Virus record (IMG/VR): IMGVR_UViG_3300005731_000051
Span: 1 to 31,639 of that record
Direction: 5' to 3' (one strand)
From: a virus
DNA: 31,639 bases
The notes under the pieces were generated by a model. It was not told the DNA's origin and did not search any database. It saw only the letters and a program-made list of their open reading frames with translations. Of this stretch, positions 4,779 to 29,804 are shown piece by piece; the first letter of the stretch is position 1; the number at the start of each line of letters is the position of its first letter. A program made the translations under genes and the position numbers.

Positions 4779-7700
4779 TTAGCCGAATGAATAAACAAAG
4801 TTTGATATTATAGCTTGAATAGTGTAATAGTTATATCCTTCATACATTACTCTTACTCTTATTGCCTTATCTCTTACACGAGATTGATCATCACCTTGAC
4901 CAACTTCTATATACAAATGATCTTCGTTATACTCCATATTCTGTTGGATTATACCGAAATCTACGCTATTGAAATCCCAAGTCGCGGGAAGTGCGCCTGC
5001 GATATTATTACCATTTTGATCCCAAACTTCATTGTAAAATACACCATTACTTTCAAAACTAGGCCCAATTATATAAATTACACCGTTCCAAGTCATGTAC
5101 CCCCCAACTATTCTTTCAGATTCTTCTTGGCTAATAGGGTCACCATTTGTAGCACTCATAGTGAACGCAGTTACCATAGTACCGTTATTATCTACAATAC
5201 CCGTCGTAACTGTGTCCCAAGCGTTGATATTACCATTTCCTAGTGGAGACATTGGATTAGGTTCTTGCCTTTGCTTAAGAAGCTCAGTATAACCGTTATC
5301 CTGCCCACCTAAACCGGAAGCAGTAGTTGCGTCAGTCAATTCGTAATCGAAATCATTTTCCAGTAAACCGTAAGTGATACGTCCTGGGAATTCTCTGTTA
5401 CAAATAAACATTAAATTGTTCAAAATCTTTTGCGCTGAAGAATTATCTACAATAACAAATTCAAACACAAATTTTTCTTGGTGACCGTAGAAATGGCAGT
5501 GAGGTACTTCTTGCGAGAAGTGTTCCCAAATAGTTTCCTGATCAGCCAAAGCGTTGAATGAGAATAATTTACTCTCTAAATTGAAAGTCCAAAGAGGATT
5601 CCAAGATAGACGAGATATCCACTTATTAAGCGTCTCATTCCAATATACAGTACCTAAATCATTTGATCGCCATAGTTGTGGTATATAGTTACCGTATGGG
5701 TCAGTTTCATTAATAGGAACTAGTTCTCCATCCTCATTCTCCACAGAAGGTGTGTCAATATCCGGATTATCGTCAGGGGATACCACAAGGTCATCTGCAG
5801 GAACTTCTTGGCCTACAGAATAATCTTTTACAGAAACGTAAGCTTTACGTTTAGCTGTTTCCTCAGCTGTTTCCCCATCTGCATTTCCATTAGCCTTAGC
5901 TACAGCATTATTTATACGAGCTGATAAGGCTACTTGCTCATCTGGATCTATAGTTGTACCTGTATCCTCCTCTACAGGGGGATTAGGATCTTCTACGAGC
6001 TGGTAGAAATCAGTCACGTAATTACCAAATAATTCGCTGTAGTAAGAGAATATAACGTTATTTCTTTCGCGATCATAGTTAGTCTTAACAGCATTGCTCA
6101 GTTGATTAGCTGTAAGTCTTTCTTTGTATACATTTAAAATAGATTGTATAGCAAAATCAGAAATCAATTCTAATCTATGCCCACCACCTTGCGATACAAT
6201 ACGCCATACTTTATTCTTATTGAAGTCTACACCATAAACATACTCATCTGTTTTGATAACAGAAAATTGTTGGTCAGAACCATACTCAGAAGAAATGATT
6301 TGCATCTTCTGCGCTAGTACTTCAGCATCATCTAGGAATACACCTCCAGTTTGCTGAGTAACCATTGTTCTCTGATTGATAGGGATAACTCCCACACCAG
6401 CTTCAAAGATACAATACGCATAATCACCGTGAGTGATGATGGCTGTAATCTCACCAAGTTGTTTGTTGTAGTCTCTGTAATTCAGCCCACTAAAATCGGT
6501 GTAACCATTAAAGAAGTTACCTGCAATAGCTGGAGCAGATACCATGACACGGTTTCCATAATTGATATTCAAAGATGGCGCCCTGTCATTCAAAGCAGCA
6601 AATACTCGATCAGAATCAACCCAAGTATATCCGTGATTATAACCATGTGATTCAGGTTGCTTAGAGCTTCTCAAAGCATCAATCTCATCTAGAGGGTAGA
6701 ATGATCTATCTTTACCGTATAATACTTTTTCTTCCGCGCTATAGAATTCATATGCTCTCAATGCAGTATTATAATTACATTCTTGCACCATAGGGAATAC
6801 AATACCGTGCGGTATAAGTCCAGGTGCTCGATTATGGTAATGATAAGCTTTCCAGTCTTGAGCTGTTTCAACCCCCGGTACACCTAGAGGCCTAGAAATT
6901 CTTTTATAAGTGTAGGTCATAAAACAATCCCCACCAAATATATTTACCCAGTTATCAAAATTAGGATCATCCCAACGGAATCTCTTAGTGATAGCGTGAT
7001 AAGTCTCATCTATGTTGGAATTACTGTATTTTAATTTCCATTCTGTTGGAGATATAACCCCAGAAGGGCTGTTATATACATTGACTTGTGCAGCTAAACG
7101 TACACCATCTACAGCAAACCTTTCCACAAAACTAGAAGCAGAACTATTGCTATCTAAGTTTAATGCCATACCATCCCAATCGTTGTGGAGAGCAAATAAG
7201 AATTGAGGCTCCCATATAGATAATCTAACACCTACATAATCCTCAAAATTAGCATTGTGTTGCCACATAATTGCCATACGACAATCAGTTGCAGTAGCAT
7301 CTTCCGGATCCCAATTATATACATCTGTAATAGTGTCATCCTGTAAACCTGTAGGACTAAATCCTAAGTCGAGGTTATGAGGAGTAAATAACACAGTAGG
7401 GTCGTAAGTATAACTAGCCCCACCAAGCGCCGCAGATACCGGATTGAAATAACTAGTACCCAAGCCGTAGAATAAATTACGATCTGAGCGAGATGCAAAT
7501 TGATCATTAGAAAAACCATCTTGACCACCTAATACATATGACATATATATCTTACGCTGGTCATCTTGTTGATCTGCGGGCAGAGTAGTCATAGTGGAAG
7601 GGTCAGTCATAGGTTCTGGGCAAAAAGTATGGCTCTCCAAATATAACTCTTTTACAGAATTTACATCAGCCGTACTATTTAAAGTCAAGTTAGCTACTTG

Positions 7701-10481
7701 CATATCCCAAGATGACTCTTCCCATCTTATATCCAAATCCTGTGTAAAGGTTGTAGCTGTAGCGTTATCGGTAACCTCTATGCCAACCATAGGATCCATC
7801 ACAAAAGTTCTCCATATCCAACTGAAACTACCATGATCTGCGTCTTGCCAATCAGATGGATTAGGTAGTGTATTACCAGGAACCATCGTACCCGTGGCTG
7901 CCCCACCTGCAGTTACACTAATACCCGTAGTCAGACCGGTAACAGTAGTATTCAGCGTCATAGTTACAGTAGGGGCTAATGTATTGGAAATGTCCACTTG
8001 CACAAATAACTCAGCTATAACTGATTGATCCAAAATAGAACCTGACTGCCCCAATATCTCTACCTGTAATGTGGTTTCTAAAATGTCTGGGTTACCTGTC
8101 TGTTCTACAAAATCATAAGCTTGATCATACATTTCACCAATCTGCTCCCCTATAGAACGTGGGTGAACTGATGGGTTAGGCTGTCTTAAGAAAATTACAA
8201 AATTATAACCGTTAGGGTTATAGAAGTCTTCTGGCGGAGAACCTGCAGGTATTGCATATGTGTATGGTGTCAATACTTGCTCGTAAGTATCAATCTTTCC
8301 TGAAGGCGGTGCTATATTTAAGCCTCCAAAAGGAGCTTTAGCTATGACAGGATTTTGATCCACCATCATACCCTTACTTTCATTGTTAAAAATAGAAGCA
8401 AATAATGGGGCATCCACTAGCATATCTGATGCGTAGAATGACCAATAATTAGCTATGTCAGACCCTTCAACAGTATCATTCACACCCCCTATACTTAAAC
8501 CATTCACGGCTCCTTGATAAGTTTTTTGTTGAGGTATAATTTCCTTGTTAAACTTAACGAAGTCTAACATACGGCCTGGAGCTGGCAATATCTTACAAGC
8601 ACCTATAGGGTATTTATCCCCAGCCGTAGTCCCAGCATAAACGCCGTTTAAAGATCCTTCGCCTAAACAGCCTATACCATTCCATATAGGTAATATAGTA
8701 CCATTAGATTCATGCCAGTCTACTCGTGTAGCACCCAGTGTAACATCTTCACCATCTTCACGAACATGCAGATTTCTTTCCCCTGTGGACAACTGATCTA
8801 CTTGACCGGCGTGACCAGCCATAATAGGTTCTCTAAAGGCATTACAAATATAGCCTTGTATAATAGCGTCTTTCTTTCTAGTTTTACGTACAAAGAAGAA
8901 ACCGTCAGTATTTTCTACTATATATGGGTGGTTACGTATAGAAGAGACATTCACTCTGAAGTATCTTACCATAGTATCTTCACCACCATTAGTTAATTTT
9001 GTTCTGCATTTATTGGTACGATATACACCTAACCTGTTTTCGGATGAAGTAGCGTCCTTATAACCATCATCTGTAGTGATAGGAGTTATACCTGTATAAC
9101 TGAAGTTATCTTCATAATTATCACCGCCTCGTATAGGCAATGCAGGTGTTGTACCTTGACCTTCCTTTAGTATAAATACTATACCAACTTCATAAGTCTC
9201 GCCGGCCCAATACCCTAAATTGTGATAAACATTATCTGGATCCGCATAACCAGTCCCTATCTCCTTAATAGGGATCTGCATATCTACCTCTTCAATCCTT
9301 AACCTCTGAGCTAACTCCTTAAGAGTCTCAAAATCATTATTCCTAGAAGTAATATTTCCGAACAACAATCTATCATTATACTGCGTCATTGTTTTAACAG
9401 TATGGATAGATGAGTAGTCAATATTCAAATTTGATGAGGTGATATCACTAGTAGATTCACTGCCGTAAATATTTATGAACATCTCGTCCTCATCTCCTAT
9501 ATCATATATATTAGATATTTCCTTGATTGTAGTAACAGTGCTAGTTTCTCCCTCAGCTTTAGAGTAATATACTCTCACACCGCTGAAAGTCTTATCCAAG
9601 TTAGACAACTTGAATTTTACCATCTTATCAGTGGTATCACCAGATTTTGTTCCGTGATCATTGTAAGCAACAGCAACCGTACGAGATTCCTCTATAAGAT
9701 CTGTTAAAGCTCCATCACTATCTGTGTATCTAAAGTAAAATTTGTAATCTCCACCATCTAGTATACCGCCAGTTTGTACACCCAAGAATTCCAGGTCAGG
9801 GATCTTATTGGCTTGGCGAATTAGACGAGTACCACCGAATCTTTGGTTAGAGTATGTGTTGGTGTCTCTATCTTGTCTACGATCAGCAATAGCAGCTTGC
9901 TTACCATTCTCACTTAAACGGAAACGGCTATTTACTAAACGTGGCGGATTATAATCATCCGTGAAAATAATATTAACAGACTCGTCATAAGACGGCTGTA
10001 CTTCAACTTCTATAAGTCTATCAGAAATAAAATTAAGTAATTGTGTTCTGAATGGATCAGTATAGTTAACATCGTCATCTAAAACTATATCAGAAGTCGA
10101 TGTAGAGAAGTTGTATAAAGGAGCATATTCGTCCTTGAGAGGTAAGTAGAAATTGGGGTCTATATTACTTTGGGCTAATAAACTATTCCAGTCTGGCGAA
10201 GGAAAAGTACCTATTTCACCCTCAAAGAATCCCCCATCTGTAGAATCAAATCTACCAGAAATAATATAGGCTATGTCATTAAACACTTCAACACCTAGAG
10301 GTTTAAACCCTTCAGTAAGAGTAGTCTTTACATGATTACCCTCCATGTTTTGCAGTATCAATTGGTTCTCCCCTTTAGTTGTGAGAGTGGCATTGATAGC
10401 ATCAGTCATCACATTAGGTTGTGTATTAACCGGATGTGAATCAGTATTTAATTCTGAAAATGTATTAACTGAGTTTGCCAT
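4779..10481 (-). CDS. Giant tail protein (1900 aa), crAss-like tail stabilisation/muzzle-type
   Basis: This is the largest gene in the window. The N-terminus (MANSVNTFSELNTDSHPVNT) and the following 350 residues contain many DGG/DGD turns and beta-strands (GGDYKFYFRYTDSDG). An acidic, proline-rich hinge lies at about residues 1490-1590. A conserved-looking segment, NKWISRLSWNPLWTFN, follows, and the protein ends IRVRVMYEGYNYYTIQAIIS. This architecture, its size and its place after the ring proteins and before the fibres match the long tail stabilisation proteins of crAss-like phages, which form the distal part of the short tail. It overlaps the preceding gene by 17 bases. There is no tape-measure-like coiled coil, which supports a short-tailed virion. 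The family assignment is by resemblance, not by search. Confidence 0.7.
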   Translation of the reverse strand: MANSVNTFSELNTDSHPVNTQPNVMTDAINATLTTKGENQLILQNMEGNHVKTTLTEGFKPLGVEVFNDIAYIISGRFDSTDGGFFEGEIGTFPSPDWNSLLAQSNIDPNFYLPLKDEYAPLYNFSTSTSDIVLDDDVNYTDPFRTQLLNFISDRLIEVEVQPSYDESVNIIFTDDYNPPRLVNSRFRLSENGKQAAIADRRQDRDTNTYSNQRFGGTRLIRQANKIPDLEFLGVQTGGILDGGDYKFYFRYTDSDGALTDLIEESRTVAVAYNDHGTKSGDTTDKMVKFKLSNLDKTFSGVRVYYSKAEGETSTVTTIKEISNIYDIGDEDEMFINIYGSESTSDITSSNLNIDYSSIHTVKTMTQYNDRLLFGNITSRNNDFETLKELAQRLRIEEVDMQIPIKEIGTGYADPDNVYHNLGYWAGETYEVGIVFILKEGQGTTPALPIRGGDNYEDNFSYTGITPITTDDGYKDATSSENRLGVYRTNKCRTKLTNGGEDTMVRYFRVNVSSIRNHPYIVENTDGFFFVRKTRKKDAIIQGYICNAFREPIMAGHAGQVDQLSTGERNLHVREDGEDVTLGATRVDWHESNGTILPIWNGIGCLGEGSLNGVYAGTTAGDKYPIGACKILPAPGRMLDFVKFNKEIIPQQKTYQGAVNGLSIGGVNDTVEGSDIANYWSFYASDMLVDAPLFASIFNNESKGMMVDQNPVIAKAPFGGLNIAPPSGKIDTYEQVLTPYTYAIPAGSPPEDFYNPNGYNFVIFLRQPNPSVHPRSIGEQIGEMYDQAYDFVEQTGNPDILETTLQVEILGQSGSILDQSVIAELFVQVDISNTLAPTVTMTLNTTVTGLTTGISVTAGGAATGTMVPGNTLPNPSDWQDADHGSFSWIWRTFVMDPMVGIEVTDNATATTFTQDLDIRWEESSWDMQVANLTLNSTADVNSVKELYLESHTFCPEPMTDPSTMTTLPADQQDDQRKIYMSYVLGGQDGFSNDQFASRSDRNLFYGLGTSYFNPVSAALGGASYTYDPTVLFTPHNLDLGFSPTGLQDDTITDVYNWDPEDATATDCRMAIMWQHNANFEDYVGVRLSIWEPQFLFALHNDWDGMALNLDSNSSASSFVERFAVDGVRLAAQVNVYNSPSGVISPTEWKLKYSNSNIDETYHAITKRFRWDDPNFDNWVNIFGGDCFMTYTYKRISRPLGVPGVETAQDWKAYHYHNRAPGLIPHGIVFPMVQECNYNTALRAYEFYSAEEKVLYGKDRSFYPLDEIDALRSSKQPESHGYNHGYTWVDSDRVFAALNDRAPSLNINYGNRVMVSAPAIAGNFFNGYTDFSGLNYRDYNKQLGEITAIITHGDYAYCIFEAGVGVIPINQRTMVTQQTGGVFLDDAEVLAQKMQIISSEYGSDQQFSVIKTDEYVYGVDFNKNKVWRIVSQGGGHRLELISDFAIQSILNVYKERLTANQLSNAVKTNYDRERNNVIFSYYSELFGNYVTDFYQLVEDPNPPVEEDTGTTIDPDEQVALSARINNAVAKANGNADGETAEETAKRKAYVSVKDYSVGQEVPADDLVVSPDDNPDIDTPSVENEDGELVPINETDPYGNYIPQLWRSNDLGTVYWNETLNKWISRLSWNPLWTFNLESKLFSFNALADQETIWEHFSQEVPHCHFYGHQEKFVFEFVIVDNSSAQKILNNLMFICNREFPGRITYGLLENDFDYELTDATTASGLGGQDNGYTELLKQRQEPNPMSPLGNGNINAWDTVTTGIVDNNGTMVTAFTMSATNGDPISQEESERIVGGYMTWNGVIYIIGPSFESNGVFYNEVWDQNGNNIAGALPATWDFNSVDFGIIQQNMEYNEDHLYIEVGQGDDQSRVRDKAIRVRVMYEGYNYYTIQAIISNFVYSFG

Positions 10482-11238
10482 ACTTTTTATTTCTTTCGCG
10501 AGACATGCGTTGTTTAACTACAGTCCTCATAACTTTATCATGCATACGACCTAAAGGGCGATAAAATCTTATCTCCCCATCTCCATCAATTATACGCACT
10601 TCTTCACCCCTGTTAAGATGGTAACGTAATCTTTTTACGCAGTATCTTATCAGCTGTGCTAATTTCTGCTCCTTAATATAAGAAAATTCCTCGTAAACCA
10701 CAGGCAAGAAATAATCAATGTCTCTGGGCAGATTACTGAAACCATTCCCGCTATTTGCGCGTTTTACCATTTCTGCGAATATCTTCTTATTAACATATAC
10801 ACCTAAATGTTGTTTACGGTCTTTAATCTTGTATTTCATCATTGGTATCTTATAATCTGTCATCATAAGATCAAATTGATGGTACTTGTTATTCTTACGG
10901 AAACCTTTAGCAGCCTTATCATTCATCCATCCCATATAAATTTCTGGTTTGTTCGGGCTGTTATTAGGCATTATAATCTTACCTTTACCCATAGCTACTT
11001 CATATAGAACAGCTTTGAGCCAAGTAACAAAGATCTTACGCACCAACGCACTGTTGTCCTTAGTATTGTAAATGTGCTGTAACTTCCCGGCTGGGCAGTC
11101 TTTGGTACGCACTAAATATCTTTTTGCTATCACAGGATCATTCGGTAAAACGTCCTTCAATGTGAGCATGAGGGTAGTATCGTAGTCAGCTACCTTTTTG
11201 CGTTTGCCTGTATGTGGATTGTAAACGTATCTTCCCAT
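10465..11238 (-). CDS. Basic tail-module protein with HU/IHF-like segments (257 aa)
   Basis: The protein is very basic (MGRYVYNPHTGKRKKVADYD at the start, RMSRERNKKYGKLS at the end). Two segments look like the helix-helix-beta start of HU/IHF proteins: about residues 65-95 (LVRKIFVTWLKAVLYEVAMG then KGKIIMP) and 190-230 (EQKLAQLIRYCVKRLRYHL then NRGEEVRIIDGDGEIRFY). The second is the better match, with the L-x-x-G-E-x-V pattern. IHF-like proteins are known in crAss-like structural blocks, where they occur among tail genes. It abuts the previous gene with a one-base overlap at 11238 and overlaps the 1900-aa gene. Whether it binds DNA or uses this fold as a tail ring is open. Confidence 0.5.
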   Translation of the reverse strand: MGRYVYNPHTGKRKKVADYDTTLMLTLKDVLPNDPVIAKRYLVRTKDCPAGKLQHIYNTKDNSALVRKIFVTWLKAVLYEVAMGKGKIIMPNNSPNKPEIYMGWMNDKAAKGFRKNNKYHQFDLMMTDYKIPMMKYKIKDRKQHLGVYVNKKIFAEMVKRANSGNGFSNLPRDIDYFLPVVYEEFSYIKEQKLAQLIRYCVKRLRYHLNRGEEVRIIDGDGEIRFYRPLGRMHDKVMRTVVKQRMSRERNKKYGKLS

Positions 11239-12005
11239 TACTGCATAGACTTATAACTAGACCAAAATACTTTACGGTCATGTCGTGTCATAGCAGATAA
11301 CATACGGTTAAGGTGATTCTGAGATACATATTCAGGAATCTTAGCTGCAGCCATCTTACGACCACTTTCCATCTTAATATACTCCAGCATATTCAAAGCC
11401 CCTTGATCGCCCATAAACGCTTTCTTTTGTGTATCTATGAACTTCATTTTGTAAGCTATGGCTTCCGCCTCTTTACGAGTAATAAGTGGATTACCATCAT
11501 TATCAACACATGTACCACGGTATATTACTACACCGGTACTACCTACCCAGTCTTCATCAAAGTGTAAAGTATAATTACCTAAAGTGCCCTGCAATTCGTA
11601 AGGGATGAATTCTCCTTTAGGGTGTAAACGGCTTTGCTGATCATCTATATTTACTCTGTAAGCATTAGGGTTAGTGATAGCATCAGCAAAGTGACTGTGG
11701 TTAGGCCTTACGATTTGCTCCGCATGAAATAAAATTACGCGGTCTCCATACTGATCTCTCCATTCCTGACCTGTACTAACAGCCTCAATAAACTCTACAT
11801 TACACGGTAATTGTACTGTACGAGAATTGTCTATCTCAAACTCAAATGCATGAATAGCTGTAGCAATATTTCCTATATCCCGCCATATATTGTATGCACG
11901 TTCTACATAATCATCTTCATGTAGGTACGTATCAAAAAGATCTTGTAAAAGATATTTCCCATACATAAAATCGTAAAACGGTTTAGCTGCTTGTTCCTGT
12001 GCCAT
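11238..12005 (-). CDS. Neck/tail ring protein (255 aa), P22 gp4-like candidate
   Basis: The N-terminal 70 residues are helical (DYVERAYNIWRDIGNIATAI), followed by a beta part (RTVQLPCNVEFIEAVSTG, then HFDEDWVGSTGVVIYRGTC) and a C-terminal helical part (ALNMLEYIKMESGRKMAAA). A helical adaptor with an inserted beta domain is typical of head-to-tail connector proteins of short-tailed phages, sometimes called tail tubular proteins. Its stop and start codons are fused to those of the neighbours (ferritin TAATG at 12005). By position it should lie in the portal-proximal rings. I do not recognise the family with certainty. Confidence 0.55.
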   Translation of the reverse strand: MAQEQAAKPFYDFMYGKYLLQDLFDTYLHEDDYVERAYNIWRDIGNIATAIHAFEFEIDNSRTVQLPCNVEFIEAVSTGQEWRDQYGDRVILFHAEQIVRPNHSHFADAITNPNAYRVNIDDQQSRLHPKGEFIPYELQGTLGNYTLHFDEDWVGSTGVVIYRGTCVDNDGNPLITRKEAEAIAYKMKFIDTQKKAFMGDQGALNMLEYIKMESGRKMAAAKIPEYVSQNHLNRMLSAMTRHDRKVFWSSYKSMQ

Positions 12006-12574
12006 TATAATACTTTTTTACCCATCTCAGTATCTAGTAATCTCAAAGCAGCTCCTTCAGTACCGAATGCTTTTAATTGGTCTTCCCAATCTAAGATTTT
12101 TGCAACTTCCTCATGCTGCTCTTTCATGTAGCGACTACTAAGCTCTAGAAGTAAAAAGTCTGCTTTTTGCATAGCTGTTTTAGAAAGATCATTGCATTGT
12201 TGTGTGATCTCTACTTCATGGGCTAAAGATTCTTTAATAATAGCTGGTAAAGAAGTATAAGTATTCTTTACTTCTGGTATAGTTTGATACTTAGGTTGCA
12301 CACCTAAACCTATAAGGTATCCCCTTGACCATTCAGCATGAGCCCATTCTTCTTTAGCATAATCCTTCCACAAAGCACCGGCTCCGAGATAACCATTATT
12401 ACATAGCCAAGCAGACATAGCGTCATATAAACGAGCGCTTTTCTCTTCTTCTATTATACGGTAATTTAAAGCGTCTACTACTTCTTGCGAGTATAGAGTA
12501 TCTATACTATTAATTTTAGCGGCAGTTGTTCTAGTGAAAGTTGCTGCGGTCGGGGTTGTTTTTCCTACTGACAT
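12005..12574 (-). CDS. Non-haem ferritin (ferroxidase) in the tail operon
   Basis: The 189-aa product aligns by eye with bacterial FtnA over its four helices. Residues matching the E. coli ferroxidase and third iron sites are all present: E43 (FtnA E17), Y50 (Y24), E75/E76 and H79 (E49/E50, H53), E120 (E94), and E152, Q153, E155, E156 (E126, Q127, E129, E130). Segments such as LYDAMSAW, YAKEEWAHAEW and KEQHEEVAKI are close to FtnA. Ferritins oxidise Fe(II) and store it as mineral in a 24-subunit shell. Here about 30 Ser/Thr/Ala-rich residues precede helix A, an extension that could dock to the virion. The gene is coupled on both sides to tail genes (TAATATG upstream, TAATG downstream), so it is co-translated with structural proteins. 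A role in the particle is inferred; the enzyme family is near certain. Confidence 0.92.
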   Translation of the reverse strand: MSVGKTTPTAATFTRTTAAKINSIDTLYSQEVVDALNYRIIEEEKSARLYDAMSAWLCNNGYLGAGALWKDYAKEEWAHAEWSRGYLIGLGVQPKYQTIPEVKNTYTSLPAIIKESLAHEVEITQQCNDLSKTAMQKADFLLLELSSRYMKEQHEEVAKILDWEDQLKAFGTEGAALRLLDTEMGKKVL

Positions 12575-12575
12575 A

Positions 12576-13280
12576 TTATGTTACTTTATCTTCTTGTGTA
12601 TTAGGCATCTTAGGTACCTGCAGTTGTCTGTAATATCTAATCCATTTTTCTGTTAGAGCGTCAATAATGGCCATTTGCATATGTTGAGGCGCTGGATATT
12701 CTTCGTTTAAGAAATTCGGATTGGTTGGGTCAATAAAACTAGGTTGCTCAAATATAGCTCTTACTTTTACAAATTGTAAAGGGTTGTAAGGGCTCATATT
12801 AAAGAACCACATATCTAATTTACCATTTTCATTAGGCGCTAAATCTACCCAAATAAAAGGTTTGTGTCTAGTTTTAATTCTGACTCTGTGGGTACGGATA
12901 TCATCCGGGTGATAGTATACTTTGAAACTCTCACGCATATTATTAAGACCAACATATTCAACTGGGTTTACCCCAAACAAAGGAGATATAGCTGGTATTT
13001 CTACACGCGGAATACTGGCGTCCGGATCTTTCAGTAAATCTTCTGTACAGTCTAATCCAGGTGTGAGGTTATCACATACCAACTTCTGTAGAGGTAATTC
13101 CTGCACCAAAAACTTAGGATTAAGTTTATTTGTGATTGCATATTTATGCGCAAAATCTGCACGCTGTAAATCTATCTCAGCATACAACTGCTCCAAGCTA
13201 AACGCCTGATCTGCTATGTTACCATCTAAGCCATCAGCAATGCGATTTCTACAGGCGCTGGCCATTTCTGAGTGAGTCAT
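12576..13280 (-). CDS. Neck/tail structural protein (234 aa)
   Basis: The first 60 residues look helical (AFSLEQLYAEIDLQRADFAH), then a mixed region with RVEIPAISPLFGVNPVEYVG, a beta part (HRVRIKTRHKPFIWVDLAP) and a C-terminal helix (MAIIDALTEKWIRYYRQLQV). No catalytic motif is seen. The gene starts directly after a perfect palindrome and a terminator, so it may begin a new transcript that includes ferritin and the tail genes downstream. It probably belongs to the ring or hub of the short tail. The family is not recognised. Confidence 0.6.
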   Translation of the reverse strand: MTHSEMASACRNRIADGLDGNIADQAFSLEQLYAEIDLQRADFAHKYAITNKLNPKFLVQELPLQKLVCDNLTPGLDCTEDLLKDPDASIPRVEIPAISPLFGVNPVEYVGLNNMRESFKVYYHPDDIRTHRVRIKTRHKPFIWVDLAPNENGKLDMWFFNMSPYNPLQFVKVRAIFEQPSFIDPTNPNFLNEEYPAPQHMQMAIIDALTEKWIRYYRQLQVPKMPNTQEDKVT

Positions 13281-14444: not shown

Positions 14445-14583
14445 AATTTAATGTTTTTGTGTAATACTTATACCAGTGTAGCATTACGGTTTTATAAAAT
14501 AAGGCCTGAGCTGGTATCCCACGCCTGATCATTTGATCTCCCCATAGATAACATTTTAAAGTATTATCACCAGGGTAAGTCAT
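14425..14583 (-). CDS. Small protein between two structural genes (52 aa)
   Basis: This frame is too short for ordinary ORF lists. It starts ATG 14583, seven bases after the stop of the 258-aa gene, and ends TAA 14427-14425 after overlapping the start of the 351-aa gene by 20 bases. The peptide begins MTYPGDNTLKCYLWGDQMI and ends with a Tyr-rich basic stretch (HWYKYYTKTLNY). It fills a 146-base gap in an otherwise tightly packed region and looks protein-like. No family is recognised. Translation would be coupled to that of its neighbours. Confidence 0.5.
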   Translation of the reverse strand: MTYPGDNTLKCYLWGDQMIRRGIPAQALFYKTVMLHWYKYYTKTLNYVYIIR

Positions 14584-14590
14584 GAAAATC

Positions 14591-15367
14591 TTATGGTTGT
14601 ATAGATTGGTTTACAGCAGGGTTAGTCTGTAGTCGAGGATCAGAACTAGCCTCTAAGACTAGTTTCACGATACGTTTGATGATTTCTCTGCAAGCGTATT
14701 CTGGCCACTCCATTTCTAGAGAAGTATCTAAAGGAAGGTCTCTTTGTTGCACAGTTAAATTAAGTGCTCTAGGCTCTTTCAAGTAATCGATATACACAGA
14801 ACCTATTGCGTACTGATTTAAATCCCCTGCAAAATAAATAAGATCTGTTACAGCGTTGTTAGATCCATCAATAAATTGGTGGTAAGGTCGCTTAAAATCT
14901 GGTTTGAGGAAAGAGTTATTAATAATCCCGTTTGCAATATCTCTAGTTAACCTTTTAGAAGGAGTACTAATTTCGTATCCTGCTGGGTAGCATCTATGAG
15001 GCCGTAAGTTTATAACACCTACATGAGAACCTAACATATGCCAATAATTGTCCGGTGCTTTAAACTGGTAGAAGCCAGAATCATATCTGTTACCTACTGC
15101 TATAGGAAGGTTGGTTTCAGCAACGCCGCCTGACCAATTTCCAACCAGAGACAAACCTGACGACGTAATTGCAAACGTCGCCGAGGTTGTCAATGGACTC
15201 AAATCATCTGATAACTGTTGCGTAGTTTCGAAAAGATTATAACGCTCATTAGAGTACTCTTGGATAGCCTTTGTACCCCAGTAGTTATAGTCGTCTAAGT
15301 GTAGAGAAGGAGCTTTAGCTTTTCTCAATTCTCTTAGCACATTTTCGTAAACCTGCTTTTCAGTCAT
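14591..15367 (-). CDS. Putative head-tail ring/adaptor protein (258 aa)
   Basis: An N-terminal helix (MTEKQVYENVLRELRKAKAP) is followed by DDYNYWGTKAIQEYSNERYN, a beta-rich centre (about 60-200, with YWHMLGSHVGVINLRP and SVYIDYLKEPRALN) and a C-terminal helix (WPEYACREIIKRIVKLVLEA) ending SSDPRLQTNPAVNQ. A long C-terminal helix ending in a D-P-R motif is a familiar look for ring/adaptor proteins of crAss-like and related phages. It follows the 298-aa gene by eight bases. I infer a place in the neck below the portal. No enzymatic motif was seen. Confidence 0.6.
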   Translation of the reverse strand: MTEKQVYENVLRELRKAKAPSLHLDDYNYWGTKAIQEYSNERYNLFETTQQLSDDLSPLTTSATFAITSSGLSLVGNWSGGVAETNLPIAVGNRYDSGFYQFKAPDNYWHMLGSHVGVINLRPHRCYPAGYEISTPSKRLTRDIANGIINNSFLKPDFKRPYHQFIDGSNNAVTDLIYFAGDLNQYAIGSVYIDYLKEPRALNLTVQQRDLPLDTSLEMEWPEYACREIIKRIVKLVLEASSDPRLQTNPAVNQSIQP

Positions 15368-15375
15368 CGTTTAGT

Positions 15376-16272
15376 TTATTTATTTTTCTTCTTAGCTGCA
15401 CGAGCTTTAGCTGCGCGTTCTGCTGGAGTCATAGCTTCCTCAGTCTCCGGCTCTTTCTCCAACTCTTCTACCACTTCATCAACAAAGTAGTTAGGGTTGA
15501 CTTCACGCTCTAATAGCATCATAACATCTTCGTTAGTCTGTAGATAAGCAATAGCTGCATCATCTGACATACCAAGAATGTTTACCCCGTACTTAACAAC
15601 GTTATCATGAGGATTAACCTCTACAATACCCATTTGCTTGGCCTTAACGTACAGAAGATTGATCTTCATAGTTTTGCTGCGGTATACAGAAAGAACTTTT
15701 TCAGGGTTCTTCTTACACTGCTCTAGCAAGAACTTCTTAACGTTAGCTGGGGTTTCTCCTGTCATATCCTGACCTAACAATAAAGCTCTGTTCTCGTAGT
15801 TAGTAGTAGGATCTTCCATAACATGCTTCAATGCTTCAAAAGCAAGTTCAGTCTTCTTGTTATCTTTTTCAGCTTCTCTACCTTCAATGTGCACATAAAA
15901 CAGCGCTTTACCTCTTTGTGCTTCTTCAAAAGACATAGCTATACAAGGGAGGTGTCTTACCCATGCCCAATTAATGCGATCTACTGTACTGTTTGCTAGA
16001 TCAAACTCCATCCCATCTTTCAATACTAACTTAGTATTCAAATGAGCCTTAGCCGGGTCGTTACTTACAGTTACAAAATATTCTAGATTCTTCTTCTCAT
16101 CTTCACTGATGCGATCTACTCCAGCAAACCAAGAGATAGAAGGATCATAAGCTGGTTGCACTGTGTGCTTACCATTTTTATACACTGATTTCAGCGTAAT
16201 TACTTTGTCGGTACTAGTACCATTTGCCAATTGATCAACTTCTGTGAAGCGATCATAACCTTTAACGTTCAT
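15376..16272 (-). CDS. Conserved-looking structural or assembly protein (298 aa)
   Basis: Residues 1-100 are mixed beta (VITLKSVYKNGKHTVQPAYD, then NTKLVLKDGMEFDLANSTVD). The rest is mainly helical and charged, with TELAFEALKHVMEDPTTNYE and AIAYLQTNEDVMMLLEREVN. It ends in an acidic then basic tail (VEELEKEPETEEAMTPAERA, KARAAKKKNK). I do not recognise it. It is the first gene downstream of the homing endonuclease and lies next to an inverted repeat in its leader, so it is likely the original neighbour of the capsid gene. A head-completion or neck role is suggested by position only. Confidence 0.55.
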   Translation of the reverse strand: MNVKGYDRFTEVDQLANGTSTDKVITLKSVYKNGKHTVQPAYDPSISWFAGVDRISEDEKKNLEYFVTVSNDPAKAHLNTKLVLKDGMEFDLANSTVDRINWAWVRHLPCIAMSFEEAQRGKALFYVHIEGREAEKDNKKTELAFEALKHVMEDPTTNYENRALLLGQDMTGETPANVKKFLLEQCKKNPEKVLSVYRSKTMKINLLYVKAKQMGIVEVNPHDNVVKYGVNILGMSDDAAIAYLQTNEDVMMLLEREVNPNYFVDEVVEELEKEPETEEAMTPAERAAKARAAKKKNK

Positions 16273-16356: not shown

Positions 16357-17544
16357 TTATGCTACTTCCTTGACAAAGTATTTCTTAGCTAATTTACTAC
16401 CGTATTTTATCGCAGACCGTAAGGTATCTTTATTGACGTTTAGTTCCTCCGCTATTTGACTATAAGTGCCCTCCATTATATAGGCTATACCGAGTTTTGG
16501 GTCTTCTATCTCTACCTTTAACTGTTTCTCTAAAGCTTTCCTTTTTACTTGTAGTCTCTCAGTCTCTAGCTCTACTATCTCATTTAAAGAAGGGAATCTA
16601 TTATATTTACGGTCCAATCTAAAAGTATCATCTGTGCTCATATAAAGGTAATCCCTGAGCCAATTAATTGCTTGATATTTAGTGTAATGAATATGCCATG
16701 TCGTGGATTTTGGGTTTATATTAGAATCAGCTTTAGGAGTCGCAGTACCTAAAGAATTTGTAACTGAGTTTAAATAAATAGCTAAAGCCTTAATAAAATT
16801 TTCATTGCCAGCAAAGCCGGCACACCAATATTCCTTCCCTGTTTTCGGTCTCTTCTTTTTAAATATAGTACCATCACCATCAAAATAACCTCTGATAAAA
16901 TGACGCATTAAATTGGGTTTATTAAGCAAGAATTTAGGAAAAACTAAAGTATGTGCCTTGGCTTTACCGCAACCCCATTTCTCTAAATCTTGACATAGTT
17001 GCTTGCTAGATATTTGTAGAGAACAAGTATCAGAGCCCTTCTCTTTATATATAGGCGGTGTTTGGCCAGTGGTAAGATAACCAGCAAACTTCTCTAAAAT
17101 ATACTTGTCCTCAGTTTTGAGCTTTAACTTTATTTGATTACGGTTAGAAGCATTATAACCATCCGCATACATAAAGCCTAGGAAATAAGCTTTATCCTCT
17201 GTGTCTATCCCTGAGAAATAATCGTGATTAACAGTGTATCTCTTTGTAGAAATATCTAATTTCTTCATCACTCTCTGCAAAGAGTGTACACTTATATTAT
17301 AGTGCTTGGCTATATCTTTCTGGTTAATCTTAGCCATAACCATAGTTTCAATATCTACCTTATCCTTCCAAGACAACTCTACTCCCTTAACCCTAGTTAA
17401 ACCATTCTCCTGTATAGTTCGTTCTATGACACTACGACTGTATCCTAGTTGTTCAGCTATATCAGTTGTTTTTATTTTTTGTTCTCTTAGTTGAGCTACT
17501 TGTTCTATTTCTTCTTCTGTTAGTATTATCTTTGTTCTTCCCAT
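16357..17544 (-). CDS. LAGLIDADG homing endonuclease with helix-turn-helix segments
   Basis: The 395-aa protein has two LAGLIDADG motifs, AYFLGFMYADGY (119-130, catalytic D128) and HFIRGYFDGDGT (215-226, catalytic D224), enough for a one-chain nuclease that cuts a long asymmetric site. Three regions read as helix-turn-helix units: about 10-50 (TTDIAEQLGYSRSVIERTI), 65-97 (NQKDIAKHYNISVHSLQRVM) and 355-385 (YSQIAEELNVNKDTLRSAIK). The nuclease core is therefore flanked by DNA-binding modules, as in some free-standing phage homing genes. It sits alone between the capsid-gene terminator and the 298-aa gene and interrupts a structural operon. No intron or intein boundary was seen. Its target is probably a nearby conserved sequence in related phages that lack the gene (inference). 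Confidence 0.88.
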   Translation of the reverse strand: MGRTKIILTEEEIEQVAQLREQKIKTTDIAEQLGYSRSVIERTIQENGLTRVKGVELSWKDKVDIETMVMAKINQKDIAKHYNISVHSLQRVMKKLDISTKRYTVNHDYFSGIDTEDKAYFLGFMYADGYNASNRNQIKLKLKTEDKYILEKFAGYLTTGQTPPIYKEKGSDTCSLQISSKQLCQDLEKWGCGKAKAHTLVFPKFLLNKPNLMRHFIRGYFDGDGTIFKKKRPKTGKEYWCAGFAGNENFIKALAIYLNSVTNSLGTATPKADSNINPKSTTWHIHYTKYQAINWLRDYLYMSTDDTFRLDRKYNRFPSLNEIVELETERLQVKRKALEKQLKVEIEDPKLGIAYIMEGTYSQIAEELNVNKDTLRSAIKYGSKLAKKYFVKEVA

Positions 17545-17634: not shown

Positions 17635-19047
17635 TTAGAGAGTTCTTGCCTCTTCCAAAATAAAGCTCTTATAAGGGTTGAATACACAAACTCCTGAGTA
17701 ACCTAATAGGTGGTACTGAGAACCGTGTACTGATGTAGAAACATCTCCTGAAGACTTTCCGTCCATTCCACCCATACCTTTAAGGTTACCTGAAACAATT
17801 TCAGATCCTTTAAGAGTAAACATAGCAATGTTTGGACGCCCAGAAGCCAAGTCAGAACCTGTATCTAAGAAGATACCGTATCCGTGATCTGGGTACTCTT
17901 GAGAAAGAGCACGATCTGGCATGAAAGTAATAGTGTTTCCTGAGAAAGTGTAAGAGTTAAACTCTGCACCAACTTTTACTTTACCAGCAGCCTTAGACCA
18001 GAAGTATGCAGAATCTGCAGCTCCTTGGAATCTTACGTCATCACGTAGAGTTCTTTGGATTTGGTCGTATAGACGCTCGTTACAAACAACAGCGTACGAG
18101 TTTCCTGTAGGCATGTCTGACTTCTCACGCATAGCTGACATTACATCATCAAATACATAAGAGTTCAAGTAAGAGTAAGAGAACTTATCACAGTAACGCT
18201 CGATTTGAGGAATTACACCGTCTCCCATTGGGATATCACGACCGTGATCATCTTGATCAAGACACTTTCCGTTTACATCGTAGTTCGTTTCACCGAAGAT
18301 ACAAGCTTGCTCACGAGAAAGTAAGAATACATCCATACACTCTTTCTCTTTCTTAGTCATCTTGTAGTAAGAAGCTGTAGCTTTAGGATCTTTACCGATC
18401 TGAATGTACATTTCTTCCTTCATAGCGAAGTCAGCTGACCAGTCTACAGAAGCTCTGTGACGAGAAAGGTAGTTACGGTGAGTTTCACTGTTTGAGATCC
18501 ACTTAGTGTAACCTCTTTCAGAAAGCTCCGGGTGATAGTTACTTCTGTAACGAGTCTTACGACCAGCTGCAGCGTAATTTACATCGATCTCTTTGTTAGG
18601 GTCGTTACCAACTAATTTAACTTGGTATTCCCAACGCTTAGTAGAAACTTTACGTGGAGCAGCAGTAACAAATAGTTGTTGCTTATTATCAAGAGTGAAA
18701 GTATCATTCTTGTCATAGTAACGCTCTTCCAAGTGGATAGTCTCAACGTTCTTACGGAACCCAGTTCCAGAGATATCTCCAACAATTTTAACTGTCTTAA
18801 TGAAGTTAACATCGATGTTCCACTCAATTACCATTGAGTTAATTGGAGAGAAAGACCCAGAATCTCCCTTAGGATTGTAATAAACATTTTTAAGTGCGTC
18901 CGTCAATGTAGAGATAGCCAAATGCGGGTAAAGTGTTACCACTTGCCCTAATTTGTGAGGCTTATCACCTAGAAGACGTCCGAAGTTTTGTACAGTCTTA
19001 GTGTCAGAGATATTCTGAACGACCGTATTTCTGTCTACGATTTTCAT
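17635..19047 (-). CDS. Major capsid protein (470 aa)
   Basis: The assignment rests on position (after portal and scaffold-like genes), length close to crAss-like capsid proteins, strong terminator and overall composition. It starts MKIVDRNTVVQNISDTKTVQ. The centre contains TKWISNSETHRNYLSRHRAS and AMKEEMYIQIGKDP, typical of the mixed helical and beta HK97-fold capsids of this group. The end carries a Gly/Met-rich loop (GNLKGMGGMDGKSSGD) and YHLLGYSGVCVFNPYKSFIL, a plausible A-domain end. The leader is A-rich (AAACAAAGCAAAAG before ATG) with no Shine-Dalgarno sequence. It builds the icosahedral shell with portal and scaffold. I see no fused protease domain. The HK97 fold is inferred and could be tested by structure prediction. 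Confidence 0.78.
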   Translation of the reverse strand: MKIVDRNTVVQNISDTKTVQNFGRLLGDKPHKLGQVVTLYPHLAISTLTDALKNVYYNPKGDSGSFSPINSMVIEWNIDVNFIKTVKIVGDISGTGFRKNVETIHLEERYYDKNDTFTLDNKQQLFVTAAPRKVSTKRWEYQVKLVGNDPNKEIDVNYAAAGRKTRYRSNYHPELSERGYTKWISNSETHRNYLSRHRASVDWSADFAMKEEMYIQIGKDPKATASYYKMTKKEKECMDVFLLSREQACIFGETNYDVNGKCLDQDDHGRDIPMGDGVIPQIERYCDKFSYSYLNSYVFDDVMSAMREKSDMPTGNSYAVVCNERLYDQIQRTLRDDVRFQGAADSAYFWSKAAGKVKVGAEFNSYTFSGNTITFMPDRALSQEYPDHGYGIFLDTGSDLASGRPNIAMFTLKGSEIVSGNLKGMGGMDGKSSGDVSTSVHGSQYHLLGYSGVCVFNPYKSFILEEARTL

Positions 19048-22538: not shown

Positions 22539-24910
22539 TAGATATTGTTTCTTACCTCCTTGGCATTACCTTGAACGTTCTCAGCGTATAATTGTTCACG
22601 CTCCAGAGCCACAATTTCCTGGTCTTTCTTAATCTCTTCTCTAACCTTGAAACGCTCGATGTCAATTTTCTCATCAGATTGACGTATACGAGCCGCGCTT
22701 TCTTCAGCTTGGTACTCTAGAGTACCTTGCTTGATTTGCATTTCTTGTTGATTAGCTGCCTCAAGTTGCTTGTTAGCTTGCTCCAATTGCTGAGTTTGCT
22801 CTTTAAGCTGTTGTTGCGTTTGCTCTACTTGCTGCTGTAGTTGGCCTGTCATCTCATTTTTCTCTTCCATTAGAGCCATACCTTCATCGATAATTTTCAA
22901 TATTTCAGTAGTAGACTCAGACATAGTCATCTTAATAATGACATCGTGAGGAATAACCCCGGCCGCAGCAAGCTCCGGAATAATGGCATTCAGTTTCTCT
23001 ATCTTCAGATTCTCTTTACTAGAGTTGACAATATGAATATTGTAATCTGTAAAACAGAAATTTTCTGGGAAAGCCTCAAACAGAACAGTACGATGTCCTA
23101 CAATATAGGACCCACGCTTACCTTTTCTATATGTAATCTTAGCTTGGTTTATCAAGTCTGTAAGCATGTGCTTACGAGAAGTATAAACTAACTCAAATAA
23201 ATCTTTTGTAATTAAACTAGTTTGCTGCTGCCCAACCCTAACGTTCGAAACAGCGTCTCTAACTTCAGCCGCCGCGTACATATATCGGTTGATTCCGGTA
23301 ACCACATCGGCTTGCCTCTCAATTGATTCCAAAACAGAATTAAGTGATTCCACGATCTGACCGTTGAGGGATCCGCGAAAATCTCCGTAGTGGTTAAATA
23401 GATGTGCTCCGTCTTCTGTAGGGTCATATAATTCGACACCCTGCTTACGGAAAGCCATAAACTTAAGAATACGTTCCATATAGTCTTGTCCAAGCACTTT
23501 CGGTATGGCTGCCAAATTAATACGCGAACCATCGACACCAGCATTTGCAATAAGATTATCACGGAAGAAATGTATAATATCATAGCTGTCTTGTAAGTCT
23601 TTAAGAGCTAAAGTAACGGAATATGGTGTTCCATTTCTATCATTATAAGCAACGCCGTTATAAGAGAGTGTAGTAGTCCAAGGTTGCCCAATAGAACGAG
23701 GAATCCAGCGACTCTTACCCATATTCAAGTAAGTGTCTTCACCAATACGAATGCCTTCATATCTATCTAATCTGTAGCCTTTTTTCTTAGCCATACCACT
23801 TCCAGCACCTTTACCATAGCTATCCTGACTCATCTTATCGATAGAGGACTTTTCTACGTTACGTAAATCATTTTTACGTTCGTCTGTAAGCTCCACCTCA
23901 TTATTAGCTAACCACTCTACGTGACAAATTGGTAATGTATCTAAGTCGTTATTAGTATGCTGATTGTGTATGTCATTGCCATGTAAATCTTGTCTGTAGA
24001 TATAATCTAACTGGCGAGGGTCATGTACAGTACGTGCTCCGGATCCTTCACTATAATCACCATATATTCTCTTTCTATCAACTTCATTCATCAAGTGGCC
24101 CCACTTATTTAGGATCTCTGAGCGCTTCATGTAGTAACGATGTACAACAGCATTTACATTTGGCTGTGTGCCTGATGAAAGGAATTGATGGTCTGTACGT
24201 TTAGAGAAGAATATATTCTCCGGCTTACATATTTCTATCTTCGGGTCTTCTCCTACCCTGTCTACATAAGTGCGGTAATAAGCTTCCCCGGAAATAAGTA
24301 AGTCTAAGAAGAATTGTTTAACCTTTTGTTTAAGGTCTATAGTGTTATCTTGTTCAAAGAATTGTAGTAGAGATTGACAAGCGATTTCAAACTGACTGAT
24401 AAACTCCTCGTTTACAGACTTCTCGACCTTCTTCAGGTATTGGTCCGTCACCATATCCATGGCAGGGGTCTCACCATTCTTCACTCTTTGGTTGTTCTTG
24501 TTGAACTGCTTGCGATACTGGGCTAGTATACGTCGAGCCTTTTCTGCGCTTTTATTATTTTCAATCTGAGTAAGAGTGTTTTCGTCATTTACGGATACTC
24601 TATATGTAAACACTTCATCAAGCAGAAGACCTAACAAGACATCGATACGTGTCTTAATTAGGGGAGTCATTTTAACAGCAATAGGAGTCTCTATACCAAA
24701 AGTTTCCTCTAAGTATCTAAACTCCTCTTTGTCTCTTACTCCCTCGTATAAATTACGCGCTTTCTTAATGCGGTCTTTCTCACCACTACTATATACTAAC
24801 GACGAAATATAATAATCCACGGATTTGCGTAAATAGTCAAAGCTACTCTTTTGCTTCTCCGTAGTGTAGAGATCCTCTACATTGTAGTAATTGTTTACAA
24901 ATACACTCAT
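22538..24910 (-). CDS. Portal protein (790 aa)
   Basis: Length, place after terminase and motifs fit a large crAss-like portal. Residues 55-104 (YEGVRDKEEFRYLEETFGIE, then PLIKTRIDVLLGLLLDEVFT) match the conserved opening of such portals, where a PL(I/V)-x-x-x-I-D-x-L-L-G segment is typical. The central part holds helices and the crown and stem regions. Residues 681-785 are a Gln/Glu-rich coiled coil (QQQVEQTQQQLKEQTQQLEQ), a usual portal tail of this group. Twelve copies form the channel at one vertex and bind terminase during packaging. The start is joined to the GroES-like stop at 24910. Confidence 0.82.
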   Translation of the reverse strand: MSVFVNNYYNVEDLYTTEKQKSSFDYLRKSVDYYISSLVYSSGEKDRIKKARNLYEGVRDKEEFRYLEETFGIETPIAVKMTPLIKTRIDVLLGLLLDEVFTYRVSVNDENTLTQIENNKSAEKARRILAQYRKQFNKNNQRVKNGETPAMDMVTDQYLKKVEKSVNEEFISQFEIACQSLLQFFEQDNTIDLKQKVKQFFLDLLISGEAYYRTYVDRVGEDPKIEICKPENIFFSKRTDHQFLSSGTQPNVNAVVHRYYMKRSEILNKWGHLMNEVDRKRIYGDYSEGSGARTVHDPRQLDYIYRQDLHGNDIHNQHTNNDLDTLPICHVEWLANNEVELTDERKNDLRNVEKSSIDKMSQDSYGKGAGSGMAKKKGYRLDRYEGIRIGEDTYLNMGKSRWIPRSIGQPWTTTLSYNGVAYNDRNGTPYSVTLALKDLQDSYDIIHFFRDNLIANAGVDGSRINLAAIPKVLGQDYMERILKFMAFRKQGVELYDPTEDGAHLFNHYGDFRGSLNGQIVESLNSVLESIERQADVVTGINRYMYAAAEVRDAVSNVRVGQQQTSLITKDLFELVYTSRKHMLTDLINQAKITYRKGKRGSYIVGHRTVLFEAFPENFCFTDYNIHIVNSSKENLKIEKLNAIIPELAAAGVIPHDVIIKMTMSESTTEILKIIDEGMALMEEKNEMTGQLQQQVEQTQQQLKEQTQQLEQANKQLEAANQQEMQIKQGTLEYQAEESAARIRQSDEKIDIERFKVREEIKKDQEIVALEREQLYAENVQGNAKEVRNNI

Positions 24911-25503
24911 TATTTATCTAATGAAAACAGTACATCAAAACTATTTATAGTCTTTAATTTTTTATTGGCTTCGTTGATAATAAGGTTACCACAATAAGGA
25001 TCGAAACATATAATTGTTCCCGGTTCGATCTGTGTTGCATTTTCAGCGCAAGAAATAACTACTCCTTGCTGAGTCGCTTTTTCTCTTGGATCATCATTAG
25101 TGTCATCATATACACCATCTTCATCTACCAAACCTTCCCCAATAATTCTAACTAAAATTCTGTCACCTGTCGGTTTAATTGTTTCCTCATTCATGTTCTC
25201 TAAGTCTTCTGCGATTGCTACTATATTATGTCCTCTTAGTACTTTACAATAACCGTCATCGGTCTTTACGTGTACACCTGCAAATTGATTCCAAATGATC
25301 CCCATACCCTCTTTAACTTCAGGGCATTGATCTTTGTCATTTGCGTTTTCACCTACTTTTAGAGCCTTACCGTAGTAAAATTCAGCGTCTACAGGCGTAC
25401 CTTCAGATGCATCTCCTACAATAACCCCATCTTGTTCAGTAGGTAAAATAGTAACTTCCGCCAAAACATTCATGTTATGAGGCGTAACTTTCATTTTTTC
25501 CAT
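24910..25503 (-). CDS. Tandem GroES-like co-chaperonin (two cpn10 domains)
   Basis: The 197-aa protein repeats the cpn10 pattern twice. Domain 1 (5-100) has TPHNMNVLAEVTILPTEQDG with a GVIV hydrophobic patch like the GroES IVL mobile loop, YYGKALKVG and GHNIVAIAED. Domain 2 (108-195) has KPTGDRILVRIIGEG, close to the GroES start PLHDRVIVKR, a longer acidic loop (VDEDGVYDDTNDDP), QQGVVISCA and IEPGTIICFDPYCG. GroES caps GroEL, and some phages encode their own cap (T4 gp31) to fold large capsid proteins. A fused double domain is known from chloroplast Cpn20, but I do not know it as common in phages. Its place between terminase and portal suggests a role in head folding. Confidence 0.8.
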   Translation of the reverse strand: MEKMKVTPHNMNVLAEVTILPTEQDGVIVGDASEGTPVDAEFYYGKALKVGENANDKDQCPEVKEGMGIIWNQFAGVHVKTDDGYCKVLRGHNIVAIAEDLENMNEETIKPTGDRILVRIIGEGLVDEDGVYDDTNDDPREKATQQGVVISCAENATQIEPGTIICFDPYCGNLIINEANKKLKTINSFDVLFSLDK

Positions 25504-29087: not shown

Positions 29088-29804
29088 TTAAATATTTAAA
29101 TTCTTTAAAAATCTTACTTGTTTACCTGTAAACTTCTCATCACCTTTACCTACTCGCTCCTTCATAATCCCTTTCCTTGTGTGGGTTAAACCAAATAAGT
29201 GACCTATCTCATGTGAGATTAAAAAACCTTGTTGAGCTATTGTACGAGGATCCTCTAAGTCAGCTACGATCATATTGTAACCTCTACGATATCCACCTAC
29301 TACAGCTAAGCCTATAGTTTCACCTTGATGACGACTGTTTACATATACAACAATGTCAGCGTCGAAATTGTGGTGCATTCTTATGATTTTCTTAAAGTTA
29401 GGTCCGTTATCTTTTGGGCAGTTTACGTAACCCTTGTACTTGAAGCGTATACCTGTACCAGCATAATCTTTATTAACCTCTTCTGTAATAAGAGCTAGTT
29501 CGAACGTATTCTCACAACTAGCATCTATAACGTACAAAACCTCTAGATAAGGTAAGGTATCTTCGTTTACAGTAGTTGAGATTTCCTTTTCCGGGCTATC
29601 ATACCACCAAGCATTAGTATCTACCTCTATATTCCTAACAGTAGTTGGTACTTCAATCTCATCATGTTGACAACACGCTGTATCTATTACCACCACTTCT
29701 TCCTCTTGAACAGGAAAGTTATCAGTAGATGGTCCAACAGTCCAATATAGGGCTATAGACACCACTAATAAACTTCCGATCAACACATCTTTAAATCTTT
29801 CCAT
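29088..29804 (-). CDS. Membrane-anchored metzincin metalloprotease (238 aa)
   Basis: Residues 7-24 (VLIGSLLVVSIALYWTVG) form a signal anchor or uncleaved signal. Residues 198-208 read HEIGHLFGLTH, the complete zinc-binding HExxHxxGxxH motif of metzincins, with E199 as base, and M214 (KGIM) fits the Met-turn. Upstream, YLEVLYVIDASCENTFELAL and DADIVVYVNSRHQG resemble the beta-strands of reprolysin or matrixin-type catalytic domains. The predicted enzyme is exported across the inner membrane and would cut proteins in the periplasm or outside. The 115-base leader holds the patatin-operon terminator. Such a protease could help release, entry or receptor cleavage; this is inferred. The motif is unambiguous. 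Confidence 0.88.
   Translation of the reverse strand: MERFKDVLIGSLLVVSIALYWTVGPSTDNFPVQEEEVVVIDTACCQHDEIEVPTTVRNIEVDTNAWWYDSPEKEISTTVNEDTLPYLEVLYVIDASCENTFELALITEEVNKDYAGTGIRFKYKGYVNCPKDNGPNFKKIIRMHHNFDADIVVYVNSRHQGETIGLAVVGGYRRGYNMIVADLEDPRTIAQQGFLISHEIGHLFGLTHTRKGIMKERVGKGDEKFTGKQVRFLKNLNI

Follow-up and report, generated by a model that had tools for sequence, protein, structure and literature searches.

An FtnA-type ferritin of a phage-only family, encoded between tail ring genes of a crassvirus and coupled to virion genes

Why should a phage keep a gene for an iron-storing protein in the midst of its tail genes? This question is raised by the window analyzed here, i.e., the whole 31,639-nt stretch of IMG/VR record IMGVR_UViG_3300005731_000051, in which a ferritin gene stands between the genes of two tail ring proteins. 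An earlier note, made from the letters of the sequence, had read the product as a probably active enzyme and as a possible component of the virion. The features needed for the argument are the following:

4779–10481, minus strand: muzzle protein, 1900 aa (PF25731, E = 2.6e-25)
11238–12005, minus strand: tail ring protein 1 (R1), 255 aa, directly downstream of ferritin (PF24228)
12005–12574, minus strand: FtnA-type ferritin gene, 189 aa, ATG start, stop codon included in the coordinates (PF00210, E = 1.4e-17)
12503–12574, minus strand: predicted disordered N-terminal extension of the ferritin, codons 1–24 (pLDDT < 50)
12576–13280, minus strand: tail ring protein 2 (R2), 234 aa, directly upstream of ferritin (PF25702, CrAss_Ring_2)
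14591–15367, minus strand: probable tail ring protein 3/4, 258 aa (weak hhalign match to crAss001 gp35/gp34, E = 0.001–0.002)
17635–19047, minus strand: major capsid protein, 470 aa (PF23898, Crass_capsid, E = 2.6e-20; phrog_11589, 4.7e-20)

The crass-type capsid protein, the muzzle protein and the paralogous rings, arranged in the same order as in crAss001, place the window phage, as judged from its genes, among the crassviruses (Crassvirales). PF25702 matches the window R2 at E = 0.0012 and is found in six of eight members of its family (best 2.9e-9), while PF24228 (CrAss_Ring_1) is found in two of the eight R1 family members (best 8.9e-7), and R1 aligns with crAss001 gp43 at E = 5e-5 in hhalign. 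The probable ring 3/4 protein matches the profile of a ring family (2.9e-5), one member of which, in L211, matches PF25710 at 5.8e-6. Downstream of R1 lies a gene for a 257-aa protein, with the muzzle gene next. The TAATATG and TAATG junctions with structural genes reported in the earlier note are both present, and the partners proved to be the tail-ring genes R2 and R1: the TAA stop of R2 is followed by T and then by the ATG of ferritin (1 nt between), and the TAA stop of ferritin overlaps the ATG of R1. Contamination or misassembly was rejected, since the same arrangement is seen in a second record (L009; 99.995% identical, 21.4 kb) and in seven more distant relatives.

The PF00210 (Ferritin) match in Pfam spans residues 34–166 of the window protein, and the closest solved structures by sequence are variants of E. 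coli FtnA (9bye, 2e-21; 1eum, 3e-19). The AlphaFold2 model (eight phage sequences; mean pLDDT 85.8) exhibits five helices in a ferritin fold, the fifth being predicted in the monomer at residues 174–188, and Foldseek superposes it on 3qz3 and 1eum with TMt 0.95 and an rmsd of 0.9–1.0. All ten FtnA iron-site residues, E17, Y24, E49, E50, H53, E94, E126, Q127, E129 and E130, have their counterparts in the window protein (E43, Y50, E75, E76, H79, E120, E152, Q153, E155 and E156, respectively), so that the complete ferroxidase centre and third iron site claimed earlier are borne out; together with an omega of 0.06–0.2, these residues also uphold the view of an intact rather than degraded fold. The comparisons confirm, at the level of sequence and predicted fold, a bacterial non-haem ferritin of the FtnA type, which would be active and would assemble as a 24-mer. 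A bacterioferritin was rejected, because E76-W77-A78-H79 stands where the haem-ligand Met is expected (Met52 of Bfr, the haem ligand adjoining the second diiron Glu). Dps, a 12-mer mini-ferritin that lacks a fifth helix and forms its ferroxidase site where subunits meet, was likewise rejected in view of the fifth helix, the intrasubunit FtnA ligands and the best-matching folds, which are classical ferritins. The Foldseek matches to "prohead protease" are poor superpositions (rmsd 3.5–14 Å, TMt 0.14–0.35) and were set aside. The window protein is like the E. coli FtnA and Vibrio cholerae ferritins (1eum, 3qz3) in fold, in the ten iron-site residues and in the predicted fifth helix. However, its identity to FtnA is only ~30%, it possesses an N-terminal extension and it is phage-encoded within a virion operon; its family further differs in the invariant R, H and K at FtnA positions 13, 93 and 133 and in a third site that is relaxed in many members.

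A scan with a broadened alignment gave 104 phage relatives, 80 of which were kept, forming 44 clusters at 90% identity. FtnA positions 17, 24, 50, 53, 94, 126, 127 and 130 (E17, Y24, E50, H53, E94, E126, Q127 and E130) are identical in all 80, and position 129 is E in 78, while at position 49 (third site) 46 members have E, 22 have G and 12 have D. Among 12 diverse phage ferritins, 9 of the 13 invariant columns are iron-site residues (hypergeometric 5.5e-11). This pattern shows strict selection on the ferroxidase centre but not on part of the third site, and it fits iron oxidation as the function that the phage family has kept.

The relatives of the window at the R2|R1 locus were found by a scan with the capsid protein, which gave 22 loci. 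The R2|R1 junction holds ferritin in L009, L010, L015, L016, L017, L021, L024 and L028, the first being the near-identical record from the same virus population as the window, and it is without ferritin in L007, L018, L019, L020 and L022. No PF00210 match was found in the L007 (67 kb), L018 (52 kb) and L026 (81 kb) records, which may be fragments. The closest relative, L007 (capsid 91%, R2 80% and R1 76% identical), is one of those without the gene, and in it TAATATG leads straight and seamlessly from R2 into R1. Conservation of the locus in relatives, proposed earlier as a check, is borne out by the seven more distant phages with the gene; it is missing from the five loci listed above. Because of such clean empty sites, an essential structural role of the ferritin was rejected. 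The core-gene tree requires two changes of ferritin presence at R2|R1, interpreted as a single gain, in the ancestor shared by the ferritin-bearing phages, followed by a loss in L007. Among the R2|R1 phages, the ferritin tree branches as the phage core tree does, so that ferritin has been inherited along with the tail genes while identity among the ferritins fell to about 40%. The omega values of these ferritins lie in the range of those of the ring genes or lower, although they are rough, as some of the synonymous distances are high; between L016 and L017, the ferritins are 90% identical and R1 and R2 72–73%. Substitution patterns of this kind show the ferritin to be under purifying selection.

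An active iron-oxidizing cage made together with virion proteins is well supported by the sequence comparisons, and its purpose we infer. On balance, we consider it probable that an active ferritin is co-made with the neck and tail proteins and oxidizes and stores iron in the infected cell during the late phase. A phage-specific FtnA-type ferritin would be translated along with the portal, neck and tail proteins, and this joint translation would probably make it abundant during particle building, assuming that the virion genes are expressed late. The subunits would assemble into a hollow cage, presumably a 24-mer, which would take in Fe(II), use O2 or H2O2 to oxidize it at the diiron centre, and store the ferric product inside. 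The likeliest benefit would be the buffering of iron, and of Fenton chemistry, freed as host metabolism is dismantled, whereby DNA and particles would be protected in the late phase. Protection inside the cell needs the fewest assumptions, and the loss in L007 shows that the gene is dispensable, which matches the expectation for an accessory enzyme. However, with an enzyme acting purely inside the cell, it would still have to be explained why nearly all relocations of the gene stay within virion blocks and why most members have disordered extensions.

Both features would be expected if the ferritin were virion cargo or a neck-associated internal protein, with the extension docking subunits or cages to portal, ring or cargo proteins, and with the effect of protecting packaged DNA or acting on iron as the next infection begins. 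We hold this as a tentative alternative, possible but not the likely one. Across the 80 loci, the portal gene lies directly upstream of ferritin in 28 (plus a few with one intervening gene), a ring 3/4 gene lies upstream in 29 (including L211, the source of the PF25710 match), R2 in those of the R2|R1 locus, an RNA-polymerase-like gene in five, two of which (L205 and L224) then have a gp49-like gene, and the muzzle gene (PF25731) in two, in one of which (L272) cargo C1 comes next. In crAss001, gp45, gp49 and gp50 were identified as virion cargo by mass spectrometry (PMC10172136). In L222 and L223, ferritin stands at the beginning of the structural block, and in L206 (8733–13753) and L208, which belong to a non-crass phage type, a NUDIX gene precedes ferritin, which is placed just ahead of the genes for the head maturation protease and the capsid protein; this ferritin is of the same clade, a transfer across phage groups. 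The 44 clusters fall into eight locus classes connected by nine moves on the tree, nearly all within virion-gene blocks, where the count of moves is approximate because the bootstrap of the tree had not settled and deep forks are open. In the distant relatives G004 and G008, ferritin is found elsewhere, following a protein of ~1.5 kaa, whose likeness to crAss001 gp49 is not significant, and in L041 it lies between a 3326-aa protein and a gp49 homologue (E = 4e-13). The former (L041 6–9986, plus strand) contains DNDGD, resembling the DxDGD of RNA polymerases, has no Pfam match and is possibly a divergent virion RNA polymerase. However, placement alone is weak evidence for cargo, as about half of the crAss001 genome consists of virion genes, and close relatives without the gene also speak against it. 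No cultured phage with this ferritin gene was found: 115 records of the phage collection match the crAss001 capsid, and the ferritin searches matched no named crass-type record.

The coupling to the upstream gene is unusually tight and, with the recurrence at several virion-gene loci, speaks for some link to the virion. An upstream gap between −4 and 8 nt was counted for 35 of the 44 ferritin clusters vs. 142 of 429 other same-strand pairs at the same loci (Fisher 2.6e-9), a p value that is indicative only and overstates independence, because the clusters share ancestry, ORF starts were set mechanically and small genes were omitted. Ferritin shares its strand with the upstream gene at 79 of the 80 loci, and at the last one the stretch contains no upstream gene. 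Downstream gaps are nearer the background (42% vs. 33%), so that it is the upstream gene to which ferritin is hitched in particular.

The N-terminal extension of roughly 30 residues described in the earlier note was found as well: it amounts to 29 residues relative to FtnA, of which residues 1–24 are predicted to be disordered, and the Bacteroidota ferritins examined begin just ahead of helix A. Counted as residues before FtnA residue 8, the N-terminus comprises 20–22 residues at the portal locus, 28–55 at ring-3, 25–33 at R2|R1 and 8–9 at the RNA-polymerase locus, whose members thus have no extra residues, a point against docking by the extension. In the ring-3 class, identity is 32% in the extension vs. 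68% in the core. Within this fast-changing stretch, L-K-R (or near) occurs among the first 16 residues in 13 of 19 ring-3 clusters (shuffled mean 0.76), with synonymous codon variation, and resembles a short linear motif for docking or targeting, although it was chosen post hoc and is shared by descent. The window protein itself lacks L-K-R, which again weakens the cargo interpretation. Two ferritins within the ring-3 clade that are located elsewhere (L212 and L222) both lack the motif as well, which would fit a motif linked to the ring-3 locus, though these are two cases only. The mean net charge of the extension is 0 at R2|R1, compared with about +2 for members at ring-3 and portal; a DNA-binding, Dps-like tail is possible but not favoured.

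An assembled ferritin 24-mer is about 12 nm wide, too wide for the tail barrel. The barrel of crAss001 has constrictions under 5 nm (50 Å), with a mean bore near 67 Å as estimated from its published volume and length (PMC10172136). Since a cage could not pass the barrel, it would need to remain inside the capsid, where the cargo zone is large enough, or exit as subunits. Packaging of ferritin in the virion is plausible and would account for the repeated choice of virion genes and for the extensions; that a dedicated, phage-evolved ferritin is packed in or on the virion by crass-like phages and some others via a short disordered N-terminal docking peptide, and there guards the genome or acts on the next host, seems rather doubtful to us.

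It is unlikely that the ferritin is an ordinary host-derived auxiliary metabolic gene which came by chance into insertion hot spots of these blocks and has no link to assembly. R2|R1 is indeed a general slot, which in crAss001 holds a homing endonuclease gene and an HU/IHF-like gene and in relatives holds DUF5872-like, KGG-type and glucosaminidase-like genes, and the loss from L007 is in keeping with this. However, the upstream coupling exceeds the local background, and no recent host source was found. A pattern-based scan of genome contigs with the phage alignment gave no confirmed homologue in 84,980 species genomes, and the best match among 395 Bacteroidota genomes reached 111 bits vs. 179 bits or more for the phage members at R2|R1, a rough comparison because different profiles were used. 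In trees whose bacterial sampling comprised Bacteroidota and E. coli FtnA, the phage ferritins form a single clade (support 100/100) separated from the bacterial ferritins by a branch of 2.0–2.3 changes per site. Recent acquisition from a host is not supported: the ferritin is not nested among the host homologues sampled but belongs to a phage-only clade on a long branch. Matches in Staphylococcus phages come from unannotated records with a ferritin ~25% identical and are probably host DNA.

A tail-displayed, iron-loaded ferritin exploiting host iron receptors (the "Ferrojan horse") is highly improbable: the neighbours are tail genes, but those adjoining ferritin encode barrel rings, portal or internal cargo and no receptor-binding protein, and a ferritin cage conceals its iron within a protein shell. 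The same lack of an adjoining receptor-binding protein, and a cage of ~12 nm vs. constrictions under 5 nm, speak against a tail-fibre mechanism and against the siderophore-receptor mechanism raised in the earlier note. The idea was proposed for the Vi01-like phage Sajous1, in whose virion a ferritin-like protein was detected by mass spectrometry, although TonB and FeoB mutants had no effect on Vi01-like phages (PMC10892097). No evidence was seen for a ring-like role of ferritin. A ferritin cage is octahedral, which is mismatched to 12-fold tail rings.

Phage genes of the ferritin superfamily have so far been noted singly and classed as host-support genes. "Gratiaviridae" and other gut phages encode Dps and Mn-catalase (PMC8008677) and Lactobacillus phages encode Dps (PMC6669764), proteins which also belong to this superfamily and were proposed to lessen oxidative damage. 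However, these are Dps or catalase and are described as host-supporting, whereas the window family is FtnA-type and virion-gene-coupled; moreover, the Lactobacillus phage Dps lies near replication genes (PMC6669764), unlike the window ferritin. Sajous1 gp217 is a predicted ferritin whose gene is proposed to share an operon with a tail completion gene, and the protein was detected in the virion by mass spectrometry (PMC10892097), but it comes from an unrelated phage type and is a ferritin by Phyre2 fold match only, at 22% identity; a tblastn search of the phage collection with the window ferritin found nothing in a Vi01-like phage. Both the window ferritin (4.4e-16) and a member from the portal locus (8.7e-22) match phrog_16594 of PHROGs v4, which probably represents this phage family or a sister of it, although it is listed as "unknown function" with no functional category and is not annotated as ferritin. 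Encapsulated ferritins are short two-helix proteins, and encapsulin shells have the HK97 fold. The likeness to this system would hold if a short disordered peptide docked the ferritin inside an HK97-type capsid, a hypothetical loading; the window ferritin is a full five-helix protein, unlike the two-helix cargo. Single phage ferritin annotations exist, e.g., BFVD A0A8D9C9X5. In a literature search falling short of preprints and most subscription papers, no paper linking Crassvirales with ferritin and no use of the phrase "phage-encoded ferritin" was found, and an earlier description is possible.

The window ferritin belongs to a phage-only family that is old, has kept its diiron site invariant and is present on ~100 viral contigs, tightly coupled to portal, ring, muzzle and virion-polymerase genes, by which the question of iron in phage particles becomes directly testable. 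If the ferritin is active only in the cell, the control of iron or oxidation during particle assembly would still be under lasting selection; if it is packaged, the particle would carry an iron-oxidizing nanocage or its subunits.

A second, divergent pair of phage ferritins (L033 1414–2055, minus strand; L034 1429–1992, plus strand) was observed after giant proteins, with all iron residues and a common C-terminal tail (KYKMGML/KHKIGDM). With an AU p of 0.28, they may represent a separate acquisition or fast-evolving kin.

Lysine-rich proteins (DUF5872-like or of the "LLYKKGG" type) adjoin ferritin in four relatives and are possible functional partners of it:

L015, 15695–16315: lysine-rich protein, a single fused protein
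L016, 15174–15530 and 16088–16342: lysine-rich proteins flanking ferritin on both sides
L024, 15667–15921: lysine-rich protein
L028, 13908–14162: lysine-rich protein

In L018, whose locus has no ferritin, a 587-aa protein with repeated "GG.LL[KR]KGQKG"-like motifs (14450–16213) is encoded just before R2. Within the window, a LAGLIDADG/HTH homing-endonuclease-like gene (16357–17544, minus strand; phrog_4645, 1.7e-47) directly follows the capsid gene and has no counterpart at this position in relatives, e.g., L007 and L010. The minus strand of the window also encodes a 197-aa protein with a GroES-like domain (24910–25503; PF00166, 2.4e-10), a reprolysin-like metalloprotease (29088–29804) and a patatin-like phospholipase (29920–30834).
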